A stretch of DNA of 64,000 nucleotides, taken from an uncultured Lachnospiraceae bacterium. GTDB taxonomy: Bacteria; Bacillota; Clostridia; Lachnospirales; Lachnospiraceae. Shown here piece after piece: positions 1 through 12,856 of the stretch. The position numbers and the translations under genes are program-made. Each line of letters begins with the position of its first letter. Within the stretch, counting starts at the first letter, position 1. Location of the stretch: positions 78,508 to 142,507 of the forward strand of contig CATLHM010000008.1 in NCBI GenBank assembly GCA_949949005.1. The letters run 5' to 3'. Below the pieces are notes generated by a model that was not told the DNA's origin, did not search any database, and worked only from the letters and a program-made list of their open reading frames with translations.

Positions 1-277
1 AATTCCAGAACAACACAAAAAACTGGGGTGTCTCGAACAGCAGCTTTCCATACCCTGCAAAAGACGGGTAATCTGGCAATAGCTTCCAGCTTACAAATCC
101 GCCTCCGTCCGTGAATGCGGGACTGATGTATTTCCCCAGCTCCCAGGTATCCATGAGGGAGCCGGACAAAAGCAGCAGGATAGGTAAAATTACCAGCATG
201 GCAGGTAAAAGCAGTATCAGGGACAAAAGGGCCTTCTTTGCCCTGCTGCCAATCTTTTTCAATCTCTGCAAGTCCAT
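1..277 (-). CDS. Carbohydrate ABC transporter permease, second subunit (partial; 3' end outside window)
   Basis: Not in the ORF track because it runs off the left edge. The minus strand from the ATG at 277 reads MDLQRLKKIGSRAKKALLSL, followed by a hydrophobic segment (LLLPAMLVILPILLLLSG) and a short extracytoplasmic stretch. This is the usual N-terminus of a MalG-type sugar permease that pairs with the MalF-type permease just upstream. The start lies 3 bases after the upstream stop codon, so the two are surely co-translated; a GGAGG lies about a dozen bases before the ATG. About 92 codons are visible and the EAA loop is outside the window. Substrate unknown; the solute-binding protein is not in view. 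Confidence 0.75.
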   Translation of the reverse strand, partial: MDLQRLKKIGSRAKKALLSLILLLPAMLVILPILLLLSGSLMDTWELGKYISPAFTDGGGFVSWKLLPDYPSFAGYGKLLFETPQFFVLFWN

Positions 278-280
278 CCC

Positions 281-1156
281 TTACTCATCCTCCCAAAGTC
301 TTTGCAGGGCCAGAATCGCAACCATCAAAATTCCCCCCGTACACACTGCTGCCGCCGCCATCTTGTCAAGCTCCAGATTTACAAACCAGTTGTTGAATAG
401 ATGCTGCAAAAGATATATGCTCTGATCCGGATAGGCCCCGGCGGTCAGATAGGCCTCCCGGTAAATCTTAAAAGAATTTAAAAAGGATAAAATCACAATG
501 GTGTAAAGGCTTCCCTTAAGATTCGGCAGCATGATCCTCCAAAAGCGCTGCCAGCCCCCTGCCCCGTCCACCTTAGCAGCCTCCAGCATTTCCCCGGAAA
601 TACCTGCAAGCCCTGCCAGCCAGAGAATCACCGTATATCCCATATTTTTCCAAACATAGCTTCCCACCAGTACCCAAAAGGCTGCCGCCGTACCCAGATA
701 ATCTCTGCGCACCTCCCCCCAGAGCCCGGTCAAAAGGCCTATGCGGGTGAGAAAGAGATTGAAAAACCCCTGCTTATAAAATGTCAGCTTCCATACCATC
801 ACCACCGTAGCGGTGGGCATGGCAAGAGGGAAGAGATAGGCAGATTTGATCAGGCTCTTTTCCTTAAGGCAGTTTAGCGCAAGCGCTACGGCAAGTCCCA
901 GGGTTACCAGAATGGGGATGCACACCAGAGTAAACCTCACCGTGTTTTTCACCGCGAGTAAAAAAGCCTGATTCTGAAAAATGGCCTGATAATTTTTTCC
1001 TGCGCTAAACTCCCCTGTCACCGCCGTGGTGAAAGAACGCTTCACCACGTCCAGGAACGGGAGAAGGACGAAAATCATAATCCCCAAAAATCCCGGAAGC
1101 ACAAACAGATAAAAAAATCTTCTTTTCTTTTTTCCCATTTTCCCTCTTGCTGTCAT
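281..1156 (-). CDS. Carbohydrate ABC transporter permease, MalF type
   Basis: Inner-membrane subunit of a sugar importer. The protein has a basic N-terminus (MGKKKRRFFYLF), about six membrane segments and the family EAA loop (EAAKVDGAGGWQRFWRI) that docks on the ATPase. The ORF track starts at 1228, but that start and the next ATG have no Shine-Dalgarno. The ATG at 1156 is preceded by AAGGAG, giving 291 aa, normal for the family; an ATG at 1138 is also possible. It is followed within 3 bases by the partner permease. Two BlaI-like dyads lie just upstream (1254-1303), which suggests control by the repressor encoded at 3010-3369. Substrate cannot be told from the sequence. Confidence 0.85.
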   Translation of the reverse strand: MTARGKMGKKKRRFFYLFVLPGFLGIMIFVLLPFLDVVKRSFTTAVTGEFSAGKNYQAIFQNQAFLLAVKNTVRFTLVCIPILVTLGLAVALALNCLKEKSLIKSAYLFPLAMPTATVVMVWKLTFYKQGFFNLFLTRIGLLTGLWGEVRRDYLGTAAAFWVLVGSYVWKNMGYTVILWLAGLAGISGEMLEAAKVDGAGGWQRFWRIMLPNLKGSLYTIVILSFLNSFKIYREAYLTAGAYPDQSIYLLQHLFNNWFVNLELDKMAAAAVCTGGILMVAILALQRLWEDE

Positions 1157-1253: not shown

Positions 1254-1303
1254 AAATGACTATTATGATAGTCTATGTTATTAGACTATCATAATAGTCA
1301 TTT
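1254..1303. promoter_or_regulatory. Double dyad operator, BlaI type, before the ABC permease operon
   Basis: Two 16-bp dyads, GACTATTATGATAGTC (1258-1273) and GACTATCATAATAGTC (1284-1299), are each near-palindromic and are exact inverted copies of one another; the larger inverted repeat runs 22 bp per arm around a 6-base loop. The same pattern (GACTATCACAATAGTT) sits before the BlaI-like gene at 3462-3477. MecI/BlaI repressors bind such dyads as dimers. It lies 3' of the sensor gene and 5' of the permease gene, so it most probably controls the transporter. No textbook -35/-10 pair is obvious; the A/T-rich cores of the dyads may serve as the -10. Confidence 0.7.
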
Positions 1304-1360
1304 AGTGTCAAATACTTTTTGTAAAACCAGGCCCACCTATAATTCCCTTAGCAGGACGCC

Positions 1361-2980
1361 CTACCTCCATCTTCTCGTATAAGCCTCAGATTCCTCCTCC
1401 GAAAGGTGCCTCAGAGCGCTGATCTTTCCCTCCCCGTCATATTGGGTAACCACCCCTGTTTTTCCGTTCTTTTCGCTTGCCTCGCGCAAAAACAGCCTTC
1501 CGGAAAAGCCCTCTTCCTCCGGCACCGTACTGTCCGCAAAAAAGTAAATCGGCTCATCCTCATAATAAAGCTGATAGTCATCTTCCATAACCTGAACGCT
1601 AAGCCCAAACTGCCGGTATTCATCAATGACCGCTTCCATGCTTCTGTCCTCTCTTACCCCAGAGTCCACAGCCTCCGCTGCCCCGACAGTTTCCTCCACG
1701 GTATACGTCCTTTCCTCCACAGTCTCCGCTCCTTCCTCAACGCTCGCTACCCTTCCCTCTACAGCCTCCGCCGTACCCGGCTGCACGCCCTCTGCCCTGT
1801 CCTGTGTCTGTGTCACATCATAAGCATAGGAGCTTGTGTACCCAAAAATCAGCGGATTTTCATTTACTGCCATACCCTCAATTGCATCCGCCTCCATCGT
1901 CACGGTATATTCCCCTGTCTTAACCGCATCATAATACTCCGTCCGGCCTTTGCCGTCTGCGGCATAAGATACGTAATGGGAGCCGAAAACCGTAAGCGAA
2001 ACCAAAACCGCCAGCACAGCGCCCACAATCCCCTTTGTGGTCATCCCCTTAAATTTCATTACCGCCGTAATTCTTTCCGTCACCGCATTTTTTCCAAAGC
2101 CAAGCCCGGTCTGGAAACCTATGCTTTTCTGCTGAGCCATGGAAAGCAGGGCAAGGGCGTAATCCTTGCGGCTCTCCTGTCTCCTGCGCACCACGGTTTC
2201 ATCACACAAAAGCTCCATATCCCGGTTAAACAAAAGATACATCAGCCACACCAGCGGGTTAAACCAGTGAAGGCACAAAACGCCGTGGGCAACCACCTTT
2301 TTCAGATTATCGCGATGCCTGATATGTACCAGCTCATGCCGAAGCCAAAAAGTAATTTCTTTTTCCGTACTTCCATAAAGCCCCTTTGGAAAGACGATGG
2401 CCTGGCCAAACACACCGCAGGTCACCGGAGATGCCGTCCGGTCAGATACACGGAATTTCACCTTTTCCAGACGCTTTCGGTCTTTTTCCTCAAGCCCAAG
2501 AAGAAGGAGCTGTTTTTCTCTCTCCGGCATGGGAAGCCCTTCCCGGAAGAACTGGCTGTCCCGAAAATAAAAGTACAGAGAGCCGGCCGCCATAGCCAAT
2601 GCCACCAGGCCATAGATTCCCCACAAGAGATAGCTTTCCTTCACGGTGACCACTCTGGTGGATATCTCCACCACGTCCGCGCTCTCCAGGCTGGCTGTAC
2701 CTGCCCCCTGGGCCGTCATCCGCCCCAGAATTTCCGGAGCCATATCGCCCACTGTCAGGCTGACCGCCTCCATCCTGTCCGAATCCATGGTAATTGCCCC
2801 CAGATCCCCAAGCCCGGGAAAGGGCATCGGGACAGCAAACGGAAGCACCAGACGCAAAATTGCAATCTCCCACAGCAAAACCATAACCTTTTTGGGAACA
2901 CGATGGATGAACAGCGCCCGAAACGCCGTGATACCAATGATTAAAATCCCTGCCGTGATACTCATCTGCACCAGATTCAT
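1361..2980 (-). CDS. M56-family (BlaR1/MecR1-type) sensor metalloprotease
   Basis: Integral membrane zinc protease that, in the known BlaR1/MecR1 systems, is activated by an outside signal and leads to loss of the partner repressor. Visible are four or so membrane segments, the zinc motif HELVH in FWLRHELVHIRHRD and the downstream acidic ligand region LLCDETVVRR. After the last membrane segment (AVLAVLVSLTVFGSHYVSY) an extracellular tail of about 190 residues follows, rich in Glu/Val and ending in a small YYEDEP-type domain. It is not a penicillin-binding domain (no SxxK/KTG pattern seen), so the signal is unlikely to be a classical beta-lactam. The start at 2980 (AAGGTGG before ATG) was preferred over the track start; 539 aa. 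It follows the repressor gene after 29 bases. Confidence 0.85.
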   Translation of the reverse strand: MNLVQMSITAGILIIGITAFRALFIHRVPKKVMVLLWEIAILRLVLPFAVPMPFPGLGDLGAITMDSDRMEAVSLTVGDMAPEILGRMTAQGAGTASLESADVVEISTRVVTVKESYLLWGIYGLVALAMAAGSLYFYFRDSQFFREGLPMPEREKQLLLLGLEEKDRKRLEKVKFRVSDRTASPVTCGVFGQAIVFPKGLYGSTEKEITFWLRHELVHIRHRDNLKKVVAHGVLCLHWFNPLVWLMYLLFNRDMELLCDETVVRRRQESRKDYALALLSMAQQKSIGFQTGLGFGKNAVTERITAVMKFKGMTTKGIVGAVLAVLVSLTVFGSHYVSYAADGKGRTEYYDAVKTGEYTVTMEADAIEGMAVNENPLIFGYTSSYAYDVTQTQDRAEGVQPGTAEAVEGRVASVEEGAETVEERTYTVEETVGAAEAVDSGVREDRSMEAVIDEYRQFGLSVQVMEDDYQLYYEDEPIYFFADSTVPEEEGFSGRLFLREASEKNGKTGVVTQYDGEGKISALRHLSEEESEAYTRRWR

Positions 2981-3009
2981 TTTTCGTCCACCTTTCTGCC
3001 ACGTCAATT

Positions 3010-3369
3010 TTACTCTTCCAAATCGTCGATCATCCTTTTGAGCTGCCCCACTTCCTGTTTGGAGAGCTTTTTGCCATCCAGAAAGGCCGCAAAGAACTTA
3101 GCTTTAGAGCCGTCAAACATCCTGTCGATCAGCTCCTCCGTCTCATAGTCCTGCACCTCCTGCCGGGAGATCAGAGGGCAGCACATAAACCCAGGCTCCT
3201 GTCTTTTGATGGCGCCTTTGTCCACACATTTTTTGATCACCGTGTAGGTGGTGTTCCTGTTCCACCCGATCTCTTCTTTCAAAATCTTTACAATCTGCCC
3301 TGCGGGGAGCTCCCCTTCCCGCCACAGCACTTCCATAACCTTCCGTTCCGAATCAAATAATTTTATCAT
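3010..3369 (-). CDS. BlaI/MecI/CopY-family transcriptional repressor
   Basis: Winged-helix repressor of about 119 aa, the normal family length: MIKLFDSERKVMEVLW, then the recognition region GWNRNTTYTVIKKCVDKG, then a C-terminal dimerisation part. The ORF track start at 3459 lies inside the operator region; the ATG at 3369 has GAGGGGG about ten bases upstream and begins exactly where the family does. It is the first gene of a repressor-sensor operon with the M56 protease. Two dyads upstream (3462-3500) suggest autoregulation, and an identical dyad design before the ABC permease operon suggests that operon is a target. Confidence 0.88.
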   Translation of the reverse strand: MIKLFDSERKVMEVLWREGELPAGQIVKILKEEIGWNRNTTYTVIKKCVDKGAIKRQEPGFMCCPLISRQEVQDYETEELIDRMFDGSKAKFFAAFLDGKKLSKQEVGQLKRMIDDLEE

Positions 3370-3461
3370 TTTGGTTTGATTCCCCCTCTCCTGGCCGCTC
3401 CTTTTGCAAACAGGTTTATGCGCAGACGCCGTCCCGCTTTGCAGACGGATTTGCCGCAAAA

Positions 3462-3500
3462 GACTATCACAATAGTTGTCTAAATACTACCATGGCAGTC
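3462..3500. promoter_or_regulatory. BlaI-type operator pair before the repressor gene
   Basis: The first dyad is GACTATCACAATAGTT (3462-3477). A weaker second one reads GACTGCCATGGTAGTA on the minus strand (3485-3500), 23 bp centre to centre. Both fit GACTAT-N4-ATAGTC at most outer positions. Inferred autoregulatory site of the BlaI-like gene. Confidence 0.6.
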
Positions 3501-3607
3501 AATTTGTGTCAATAAAGAATAGAGAATAAGAAATCAGACTTTACAGCACAGTATCAAGCCCTGGGCTGTATAGTTACCAAACTTCAACATTTTTTTTGCA
3601 AAAACTG

Positions 3608-3636
3608 TTGACACGAGCCAAAAACAATGCTATAGT
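3608..3636 (+). promoter_or_regulatory. Promoter of tRNA-Leu
   Basis: A perfect -35 box TTGACA (3608-3613), 17-bp spacer and TATAGT -10 (3631-3636) with an extended TGC before it. It ends 11 bases before the tRNA. Confidence 0.9.
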
Positions 3637-3647
3637 ATCAATGGTTC

Positions 3648-3731
3648 GCAGGAATGGCGGAATTGGCAGACGCGCACGGTTCAGGTCCGTGTGGTAGCAA
3701 TACCATGAGAGTTCAAGTCTCTTTTCCTGCA
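3648..3731 (+). tRNA. tRNA-Leu, anticodon CAG
   Basis: The acceptor stem GCAGGAA pairs with TTCCTGC; the anticodon stem CACGG/CCGTG encloses TTCAGGT with CAG at 3682-3684; a long variable arm (GTGGTAGCAATACCAT) and the T-loop GTTCAAGTC follow, as in class II leucine tRNAs. It reads CUG. The 3' CCA is not encoded (ATAAAAG follows). It is a single-gene unit with its own promoter and terminator and shows no sign of an integrated element. Confidence 0.95.
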
Positions 3732-8095: not shown

Positions 8096-9211
8096 TTGCA
8101 AAAAAAGACGATTACAGACAAAACAGGCCACACCCAAAAAGGGCAGCCGCAAACAAACACTCACAATGGGAATTCGATACTTCCTCCGGACTACCAGCTA
8201 AATTTAAGCGACTTTGCACTATTTCTGTCAGTCATGAAAGTCAAAGAAGCATACCAGAATGTTCTCAGCATCATCCTGGATGAACCGAATCTGACACTCA
8301 AAGAGGTCAAGGTCGAACAGGTGGTTTTAAACAAATCGGGCAAACGTGCCATACGCCTGGATGCATGGGCACAGGATACCAAAAACCGCCAATTTGACAT
8401 GGAGATGCAAAACGATGCAGGCGCAGACAATCTCCGCCGGCGTTCCAGGTTTTACCAGAGCCTGATCGATGCTCCGATTTTGAAATCAGGAAAGAAAACC
8501 CGTTACAGGCATCTGCCCTCAACGGTTATTATCTTTATCACCCAGGAAGACCTTTTTGGAAAAGATCTGGCAATGTATACCTTCCGCGAATGGTGTCAGG
8601 AAGTGCCAAAGCTGCCCTTGAATGATGGCACCTGCAAAATTTTTCTGAATATGACCAGCAAACGGGGGCGGGCAGAACTGGTCAGCCTGCTGCAATATAT
8701 GAAAAATTCCAACCTGAACAATGCGGAAATCTCCGTGAAAGACCAAAGAATTCTGGATTTGGACAAAGTTGTAAGAGAAGTTAAGGAATCGGAAGAATGG
8801 GAGGACGTGAAAATGAATATTCTTGAAATCGGCCTGGAGCGCGGGAAAGAATTGGGACTGGAACTGGGCATATCGCAAGGCCTCTCGCAGGGATTAGAAC
8901 AAGGAATCCTACAGGGGATAGAACAGGGGATTTCACAAGGATTAGAGCAGGGCTTGGAACAGGGATTAGAACAGGGACGCGTACAGGGCCTGGAACAGGG
9001 ATTAGAGCAGGGACGCGTACAGGGCCTGGAACAGGGATTAGAGCAGGGACGCGTACAAGGTCTGGAACAGGGACGGCTCAAAACTCTGGTTCAAAATGTA
9101 GAGTCTGCCATGAAAAACTTTAATGTGACCCTGCCCCAGGCCTGCGCCGGACTCGAGATCTCCGTAGCAGAATACAAAAAGGCCAAAGAGCTGATTTCTT
9201 CGTGGGAATAA
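8096..9211 (+). CDS. Rpn-family recombination-promoting nuclease / putative transposase (PD-(D/E)XK)
   Basis: 371 aa from a TTG start with AAGGAGAGG five bases upstream. The middle carries the family's nuclease core: KRAIRLDAWAQDTKNRQFDMEMQN (the D and ExQ-like residues of the PD-(D/E)XK fold), then RSRFYQSLIDAP and ITQEDLFGK. The C-terminal third is a low-complexity run of QGLEQG/QGRVQG units from about residue 255 to 325, usual in kind for this family but long here and encoded by near-identical 36-bp DNA repeats. Rpn proteins in E. coli are DNA endonucleases that promote RecA-independent recombination; role here inferred. A second, broken Rpn gene is at 39873-40723. Confidence 0.85.
   Translation: MQKKTITDKTGHTQKGQPQTNTHNGNSILPPDYQLNLSDFALFLSVMKVKEAYQNVLSIILDEPNLTLKEVKVEQVVLNKSGKRAIRLDAWAQDTKNRQFDMEMQNDAGADNLRRRSRFYQSLIDAPILKSGKKTRYRHLPSTVIIFITQEDLFGKDLAMYTFREWCQEVPKLPLNDGTCKIFLNMTSKRGRAELVSLLQYMKNSNLNNAEISVKDQRILDLDKVVREVKESEEWEDVKMNILEIGLERGKELGLELGISQGLSQGLEQGILQGIEQGISQGLEQGLEQGLEQGRVQGLEQGLEQGRVQGLEQGLEQGRVQGLEQGRLKTLVQNVESAMKNFNVTLPQACAGLEISVAEYKKAKELISSWE
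8975..9070 (+). repeat. 36-bp in-frame tandem repeat in the Rpn gene
   Basis: The unit starting GGACGCGTACAGGGCCTGG begins at 8975, 9011 and 9047: two full copies and most of a third, differing at one or two bases. Looser 12- and 18-bp QG repeats extend left to about 8860. 36 bp keeps the reading frame, so copy-number change would only alter tail length. Confidence 0.9.
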
Positions 9212-11544: not shown

Positions 11545-12696
11545 TCAATACCAATAAGGCTCCCAGTCTTTCATTAGCCGGGTCAGCGCTTCCATATAGA
11601 AGTAGTCTCCCCAGGCCACGCACTCGTCTACACCGTTATCCTTGCAGGTGTTATAGGGAGAGCCCTTTGCATAGGTTCCATGTAAAAGAAGGCCGTTGGA
11701 AACCGCAGGGTCTGTCACCGCGCATTCCCTGATCAGCGCTTCCGTCAGTTCCTCTGCCTTTTGGGTGTAATACTGCGCTTTTTCCTCGGGCAGATATTTG
11801 CTCATCTCCAGCATGCCGCAGACCGCAATGGCCGCCGCGGAAGAATCCCTGGGCTCGTCGCTTCCGTCAGTAAAATCAAAATCCCAATAGGGAATCTTGT
11901 TTTCCGGCAGATGCTCCAGGAAATAATCGGTAAGCCTGCAAAAAATATCCACATATTCCTCATCCCGCAGGAATTTGTATGCCAGCGCGGAGCCGTAAAC
12001 GCCCCAGGCCTGGCCTCTTGCCCAGGCGGAGCCGTCCCGGTACCCCTGATGGGTCACGCCGCGAAGGGGCTCTCCTGTGTTTTTGTCAAAGAAATAGGTG
12101 TGATAGGTAGAATTGTCCTCCCTGATAATGCATTTCATGGCCGTCTTGATATGAGCCTGGGCCTTCTCGGCATACTTGGGATCTCCCGTCACCTCGCCTG
12201 CCCAGAAAAGCAGGGGCATATTCAGCAGGCAGTCGATGATCAGACGGTAATTGTCCTCCGCTCCCAACTCTCCCCAGGCCTGTACAAACTGTCCCTTTTC
12301 CTGGAATCTGCCAAGCAGGTTATCCGCCGCCATCAAAGCCGCCTCCTTGCCGGTTTCGTTTCCGGTGAGCTTATAGGCCGCCACGCAGGAAGGGCTGAAG
12401 AGGAATCCCATGTCATGATGATCCACCACGATTCTGTCCTTAATTCTGCGCTTAAAGTTCTCAACCTCTGTCTCCGCCGTCTTTTTCAGCTTTTCATTTC
12501 CGGTTTTCTCATAGGCAAGCCAAACCTCTCCTGTCCAGAAGCCTTCGGTCCAGTCCGTCATTTTCACTGGCTGATAAAAATTATTGACACTGGCTGAACC
12601 GGGAAACATCTCCGTAAATTCATCCGTCGCCTTCAGAATCAGCTCCGCCGCCGTGTCGTATGCTTTCTCAAAACATTCTCTTTGTCTGTTATCCAT
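11545..12696 (-). CDS. Glycoside hydrolase family 88 (unsaturated glucuronyl hydrolase)
   Basis: Removes the unsaturated uronic acid left by polysaccharide lyases, using a hydration mechanism. 383 aa, family length, predicted cytoplasmic (no signal peptide). DHHDMGFLFSPS carries one of the conserved aspartates; YRDGSAWARGQAWGVYG is the GH88 signature, including the second aspartate region. Start chosen at 12696 (MDNRQRE) with GAGGAA eight bases upstream rather than the track's 12726. Likely substrates are disaccharides from chondroitin, hyaluronan or similar glycans; no lyase or transporter for these is in the window. Confidence 0.88.
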   Translation of the reverse strand: MDNRQRECFEKAYDTAAELILKATDEFTEMFPGSASVNNFYQPVKMTDWTEGFWTGEVWLAYEKTGNEKLKKTAETEVENFKRRIKDRIVVDHHDMGFLFSPSCVAAYKLTGNETGKEAALMAADNLLGRFQEKGQFVQAWGELGAEDNYRLIIDCLLNMPLLFWAGEVTGDPKYAEKAQAHIKTAMKCIIREDNSTYHTYFFDKNTGEPLRGVTHQGYRDGSAWARGQAWGVYGSALAYKFLRDEEYVDIFCRLTDYFLEHLPENKIPYWDFDFTDGSDEPRDSSAAAIAVCGMLEMSKYLPEEKAQYYTQKAEELTEALIRECAVTDPAVSNGLLLHGTYAKGSPYNTCKDNGVDECVAWGDYFYMEALTRLMKDWEPYWY

Positions 12697-12856
12697 GGTC
12701 TTTCTTCCTCGCTCCTTTTCATTCATTGATAAGTTAAATCTATTTTAACAAATCAAACCTGGAAAGTATATCTGCAAAAGGGCGTTTTCATATACAAAAA
12801 GTAAACAATATGATAGAATGGTGGCATTATACGATTCACAATAGGAGTTTTTGAAA

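Follow-up and report, generated by a model that had tools for sequence, protein, structure and literature searches.

A BlaI/M56 repressor–protease pair as the probable switch of an ABC transporter operon in a Lachnospiraceae genome

Gut Firmicutes have many pairs of a BlaI-type repressor and an M56 membrane protease, and these are as a rule annotated as penicillin resistance regulators. At one end of the stretch of DNA analysed here (64,000 nucleotides from an uncultured Lachnospiraceae bacterium; hereafter the window), such a pair is followed by the permease genes of an ABC transporter, which raises the question of what the pair controls. A preliminary description of this DNA had proposed that it controls the transporter rather than a beta-lactamase, and we examined this proposal by comparing operators, sensors and transporters across related genomes.

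The locus and its doubled operators

Every gene at the locus lies on the minus strand, and its parts are given below in order of transcription (window positions).

3507-3512, minus strand: -35 element TTGACA of the blaI promoter (promoter alignment and scan)
3485-3500, minus strand: upstream dyad of the blaI operator, degenerate, GACTGCCATGGTAGTA (comparison with relatives)
3484-3489, minus strand: -10 element TAGTAT of the blaI promoter, with an extended TG and a 17-nt spacer (promoter scan)
3462-3477, minus strand: downstream dyad of the blaI operator, AACTATTGTGATAGTC (motif match and promoter alignment)
3010-3369, minus strand: blaI, a BlaI-type repressor of 119 residues (PF03965, E 5e-25; 80-92% identity in 20 relatives)
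1361-2980, minus strand: M56 membrane metalloprotease/sensor of 539 residues (PF05569, E 6e-41; alignment to S. aureus BlaR1 structures)
2324-2338, minus strand: HELVH zinc-binding motif, sensor residues 215-219
1364-1639, minus strand: small C-terminal outside domain of the sensor, residues 448-539 (predicted all-beta, pLDDT about 70-91)
1306-1311, minus strand: -35 element TTGACA of the transporter promoter (promoter alignment)
1284-1299, minus strand: upstream dyad of the transporter operator (exact match; putative -10 inside its right arm)
1258-1273, minus strand: downstream dyad of the transporter operator (exact match)
281-1138, minus strand: ABC permease 1, UgpA/GlcT-like (PF00528, BPD_transp_1, E 1e-7; GlcT and UgpA NCBIfam scores below cut-off), whose start is, from homology, probably the ATG at 1138
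2-277, minus strand: ABC permease 2, UgpE/MalG-like, truncated by the window edge (domain and family matches)
Outside the window, G000:C8:76588-77889: HlyD/RND-adaptor-like gene after permease 2

The blaI promoter is immediately preceded by a tRNA-Leu (CAG) gene (3648-3731), which is encoded on the other strand and has a strong promoter match of its own at 3608-3636. Also in the window are an Rpn-like PD-(D/E)XK transposase-family protein with a long GLEQG tandem repeat close to its C-terminus (8096-9211) and a GH88 unsaturated glucuronyl hydrolase (11545-12726), and just outside it an L-fucose isomerase gene adjoins an AraC-type regulator (G000:C8:73810-75636).

The preliminary description had reported a GACTAT-N4-ATAGTC dyad at the repressor gene and, doubled and perfect, before the permease operon. 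Both were recovered, the former with one mismatch at 3462-3477 and the latter exactly, at 1258-1273 and 1284-1299, and in the window as a whole dyad matches with up to two mismatches numbered 7 against 1.3 expected, a count that none of 100 shuffles reached. The presence of dyads at both promoters thus stood, but the single site at blaI did not: that promoter is doubled too, and the doubling was missed at first reading because its second dyad (3485-3500) is degenerate and recognisable only beside the relatives' sequences. Palindromic operators at the repressor's own promoter, a trait of the BlaI/MecI family, are therefore present in doubled form at 3462-3500, and are kept in relatives.

The blaI gene and the permease operon have a composite promoter-operator in common, in which TTGACA is followed after 6 nt by dyad 1 and then by dyad 2, the dyad having the form GACTAY-N4-RTAGTC and carrying an extended -10, and the second dyad lying 22-29 bp further on. 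In all 39 of 39 doubled promoters TTGACA stands exactly 6 nt ahead of dyad 1 and the N4 of dyad 1 ends in TG; as an extended -10 requires this TG, dyad 1 appears superimposed on the -10 element, and dyad 2 lies over the expected start site. The -10 of the transporter promoter (TAGTCT, 1283-1288) is weak, deduced from the alignment and unflagged by the promoter scan.

The segment 1254-1303 also forms a perfect inverted repeat, with arms of 22 nt and a loop of 6 nt, and could be read as an intrinsic terminator or RNA hairpin ending blaI-M56 rather than as an operator. The RNA of its minus strand has a strong predicted fold (z -6.1), and the palindrome carries a terminator-like match, with 4 such matches in the region against 3.0 expected. 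However, the same block stands ahead of blaI with the -35 at a fixed distance, the N4 centres of the long stem are mirror-complementary in just 8 of 39 promoters, a transcript from the predicted -10 would hold the second dyad only, and in relatives with insertions the block travels with the transporter, not behind the sensor gene. As the block moves with the transporter and its mirror symmetry is poorly kept, we ruled the hairpin out as a very improbable reading and took the block to be an operator.

The operators in relatives and across genomes

We compared the window assembly, which is 59% complete, with 36 relatives of the same genus, and examined the loci around 20 orthologous sensors. In these relatives blaI and the M56 gene are commonly followed by the gene for the binding protein, a lipoprotein of some 800 residues, then by the genes for permeases 1 and 2 and the HlyD-like protein, and the doubled dyads of the transporter lie ahead of the lipoprotein gene. 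Among the relatives of the same genus, 20 that have an orthologous BlaI/M56 pair bear dyads ahead of blaI, and the 18 of these that also keep the transporter have dyads ahead of it too; before the transporter they are doubled in 20/20 dyad-clade relatives whose transporter promoter was examined. At four loci (L055, L061, L068 and L069) inserted genes part the sensor from the transporter and the dyads remain with the binding-protein gene, and in G036 (L120) the transporter and its dyads lie on another contig than the sensor. Since dyads accompany the transporter in relatives even at moved or split loci, a search for orthologous operons without dyads, as a possible refutation of the proposed control, found none among the 20 dyad-clade relatives and failed to refute it.

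A repressor at least 80% identical and a dyad-bearing transporter are both present in 19 of the 37 same-genus genomes and both absent from 14, with one of the two found in the remaining 4 (Fisher p 4e-6, uncorrected for relatedness). G016 and G031 have the BlaI/M56 pair and no orthologous transporter; G026 and G032 have a dyad-bearing transporter, the closest BlaI being merely 58-59% identical. The latter two genomes make cross-control by paralogs possible, and the dyads might be read mainly by a different, paralogous BlaI, leaving the linked M56 sensor without control of the transporter, a reading also favoured by BlaI proteins that share 46-65% identity with the window repressor and have this doubled dyad in the promoters of their own genes. 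Yet the other BlaI genes of the window genome have no dyad of this type (up to one mismatch) nearby, and the shared presence and absence of repressor and transporter speaks for the linked pair. We consider reading by a paralog improbable, while allowing that something other than the linked sensor may control the transporter.

The proposed control of the transporter also fits the distribution of the operator. The doubled dyad pattern is found in 24 of the 37 same-genus genomes, nearly always once per genome, and in none of 24 genomes from other families of the order, with no match in the reversed control. The composite TTGACA-N6-dyad element has two copies in the 3.0-Mb window assembly, both at this locus, and likewise two in most of the relatives that possess both genes; the reversed control found 1 match among 61 genomes. 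Other one-mismatch dyads in the window genome are single, without a paired arrangement. All composite matches that we inspected precede a blaI-type gene or this transporter, and in G024:C3 and three other-family genomes the element precedes other BlaI genes.

Among the matches listed by a broad genome scan, within Lachnospiraceae and outside it, most doubled dyads lie immediately ahead of a blaI gene, which shows, at the level of sequence, that doubled GACTAY-N4-RTAGTC dyads are a general BlaI operator among those matches. They also occur in Xanthomonadales (L132, L146, L153, L175 and other Dyella, Rhodanobacter and Pseudoxanthomonas loci), frequently close to an M56-like gene, which makes this a very widespread form of operator. 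A second type of target is the gene for a 181-residue secreted protein, which lies behind doubled dyads near paralogous BlaI/M56 genes at L079:1606-2151 (G030:C106) and L119:12682-13227 (G022:C106); the protein has no Pfam match, and genes similar to it were seen in several Lachnospiraceae matches of the broad scan.

Most relatives have a second, paralogous transporter, whose binding protein is about 40-50% identical and which adjoins a response regulator and a histidine kinase and lacks doubled dyads. At L103-L113, where these paralogous operons comprise binding protein, permease and HlyD-like genes, the genes next to them encode a histidine kinase and a response regulator of the OmpR type, and the operons usually have one more small lipoprotein gene at their front. 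On a quick tree of the permeases and the HlyD-like protein, with one long outgroup branch, the dyad-bearing transporters form one clade (SH-aLRT 97), and the dyad state requires 1 change against 9.9 in shuffles; G015, the sister of this clade, is still beside a two-component system and without dyads. We infer that dyad control had a single origin, the simplest history, judging from these sequences, being that BlaI/M56 control took the place of two-component control once.

Sensor, transporter and the proposed switch

The repressor matches the Penicillinase_R winged-helix family (PF03965) with 88 bits against a cut-off of 22.6 and can be aligned with MecI (1sd6). Its invariant Phe96 lines up with the Phe of the LNF motif in the cleavage region of MecI; MecI and BlaI are cut before that C-terminal Phe. 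A CopY-type C-terminal CxC is absent, the window repressor having no Cys past residue 64 and ending in KRMIDDLEE, and with 63 bits the repressor stays under the 122-bit cut-off of the NCBIfam CopY model. BlaR1 cleaves BlaI directly (PMC9834060).

In the sensor, the gluzincin residues H215, E216, H219, E256 and D260 (HEXXH...E) are invariant in 21 orthologs and align with BlaR1, so that, by alignment, it retains all of the zinc-protease residues of BlaR1. No Pfam match to a transpeptidase or class D-like penicillin-binding domain was found in the sensor or in any of the 21 orthologs scanned, and the generic BlaR1 model of NCBIfam covers residues 7-331 alone (77 bits, cut-off 400). The part outside the membrane consists of a poorly conserved linker and a conserved domain of about 95 residues (448-539, predicted beta) without a Pfam family or PDB fold match; the sole match in a fold search of the sensor was the BlaR1 protease part. 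Among 159 M56-like ORFs in the examined loci, some of them duplicate or truncated copies, a profile of this domain matched orthologs of this sensor alone. The earlier view of an M56 sensor that has the protease and a different outside domain was thus upheld.

The permeases have matches, all short of the curated NCBIfam cut-offs, to UgpA/UgpE, GlcT and MalF/MalG, and with the binding protein of the relatives (PF01547/PF13416) they make up the two BPD_transp_1 permeases and sugar-type binding protein characteristic of CUT1 importers. The relatives' lipoprotein is predicted to consist of an N-terminal beta-propeller and, after it, a sugar-type binding protein, whose Foldseek top match is CbpC of C. 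thermocellum; the predicted fold points to an oligosaccharide, a lead rather than an assignment given an overall pLDDT of 62 and a poorly modelled binding-protein half. Of the label 'sugar' transporter given previously, the likeness to sugar-type ABC systems held, on the basis of fold and weak family matches, and does not extend to the substrate itself.

The window assembly lacks the gene for this binding protein at the locus and in the rest of the genome, and the operator consequently abuts the permease gene (1138-1257). A candidate remnant in the intergenic segment 1151-1256 was rejected, as it had no blastn match to any compared locus and its translation was unlike the LAIYMSE C-terminus of the orthologs. 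The gene may truly have been deleted, or its absence may be due to the assembly or the strain, and without it the transporter may not function in the window genome. No ATPase gene lies in the operon and the window's incomplete assembly gave no OB_MalK match; nearly all same-genus relatives searched encode 1-3 copies of an OB_MalK (MalK-like) ATPase elsewhere.

Taken together, we consider it highly probable that the locus is a derepression switch of the BlaI/BlaR1 type with an ABC transporter as its output; we infer binding, cleavage and the direction of control from sequence. What the sequence displays directly is a composite promoter-operator confined to two promoters of the window genome and inherited together with BlaI, and a sensor that has its protease residues intact and no penicillin domain. 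At each of the promoters of blaI-M56 and of the transporter operon, two BlaI-type dimers would occupy the doubled dyads, dyad 1 overlapping the -35/-10 spacer and the extended -10 and dyad 2 the start site, and by covering the -10 region and start site would shut out RNA polymerase. A signal meeting the small outside domain of the sensor would activate its cytoplasm-facing zinc protease, which would cut the repressor, most likely before Phe96, and the transporter and the switch itself would then be expressed together. Dyads in relatives, the specificity of the composite element and a sensor without the penicillin domain all support the original proposal of a repressor/protease pair controlling a transporter rather than a beta-lactamase.

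The same mechanism could serve a different signal and purpose, with the sensor detecting beta-lactams or cell-wall damage and the transporter acting in envelope defence or wall recycling rather than nutrient import. Beta-lactam sensing has precedent in the family, the operon includes an HlyD-like adaptor, the paralogous operon lies beside a two-component system, and the authors who described the C. thermocellum BlaI regulons read them as beta-lactam responses (PMC8457756). But the penicillin-binding domain is missing in all orthologs scanned, the permeases and binding protein most resemble sugar-type ABC importers, and no beta-lactamase or wall enzyme is linked, and we find this purpose possible but rather unlikely. 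As a tentative idea about the transporter switch, one we would not bet on, the outside domain might be a new ligand-sensing module that reads the transporter's substrate or the loaded state of the propeller-fused binding protein, making the locus a proteolytic, beta-lactam-independent nutrient switch that replaced an ancestral two-component system at the duplication of the transporter.

These findings pin the predicted target of an M56/BlaI pair to one transporter operon, with the dyad-less paralog as a natural control, and caution against naming such genes resistance determinants. What non-penicillin M56 sensors detect becomes directly testable, the outside domain here belonging to no known family.

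Comparison with known systems

The locus shares with BlaI-BlaR1 and MecI-MecR1 of Staphylococcus and Bacillus a winged-helix repressor and M56 protease, autoregulation, paired operators and the catalytic positions. Unlike them it has no penicillin-binding sensor domain, its predicted output is an ABC transporter instead of beta-lactamase or PBP2a, and its dyad core is GACTAY-N4-RTAGTC instead of TACA-NN-TGTA. The copper-exporter repressors CopY and TcrY belong to the same DNA-binding family and also control a transporter via paired operators, but CopY senses copper directly through a C-terminal CxC, whereas the repressor here is paired with a protease and is without such a motif. Two permeases, a sugar-fold binding protein and no local ATPase are likewise found in CUT1 importers with a shared MsmX/MalK-like ATPase; in contrast to these, the binding protein of the relatives is predicted to carry a fused beta-propeller at its N-terminal end, and an HlyD/RND-adaptor-like gene closes the operon.

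A further comparison is with BlaI_1845 and BlaI_0696 of Clostridium thermocellum, characterised by DAP-seq and EMSA, which have GACTAT or GTCTAT half-sites, two inverted-repeat pairs and very small regulons (PMC8457756). BlaI_1845 binds GACTAT, with two inverted-repeat pairs per promoter, and the BlaI regulons of that species comprise one or three operons (PMC8457756), so that the operator type and the small regulon were already known; their operons encode BlaR1 and hypothetical or wall-related proteins, whereas the operon here encodes an ABC transporter. In the open-access literature, a scope that leaves out most subscription journals, we found no report of an M56/BlaI pair controlling an ABC or sugar transporter. 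It is thus well supported that this locus is a variant of a known switch, new in its ABC-transporter output.
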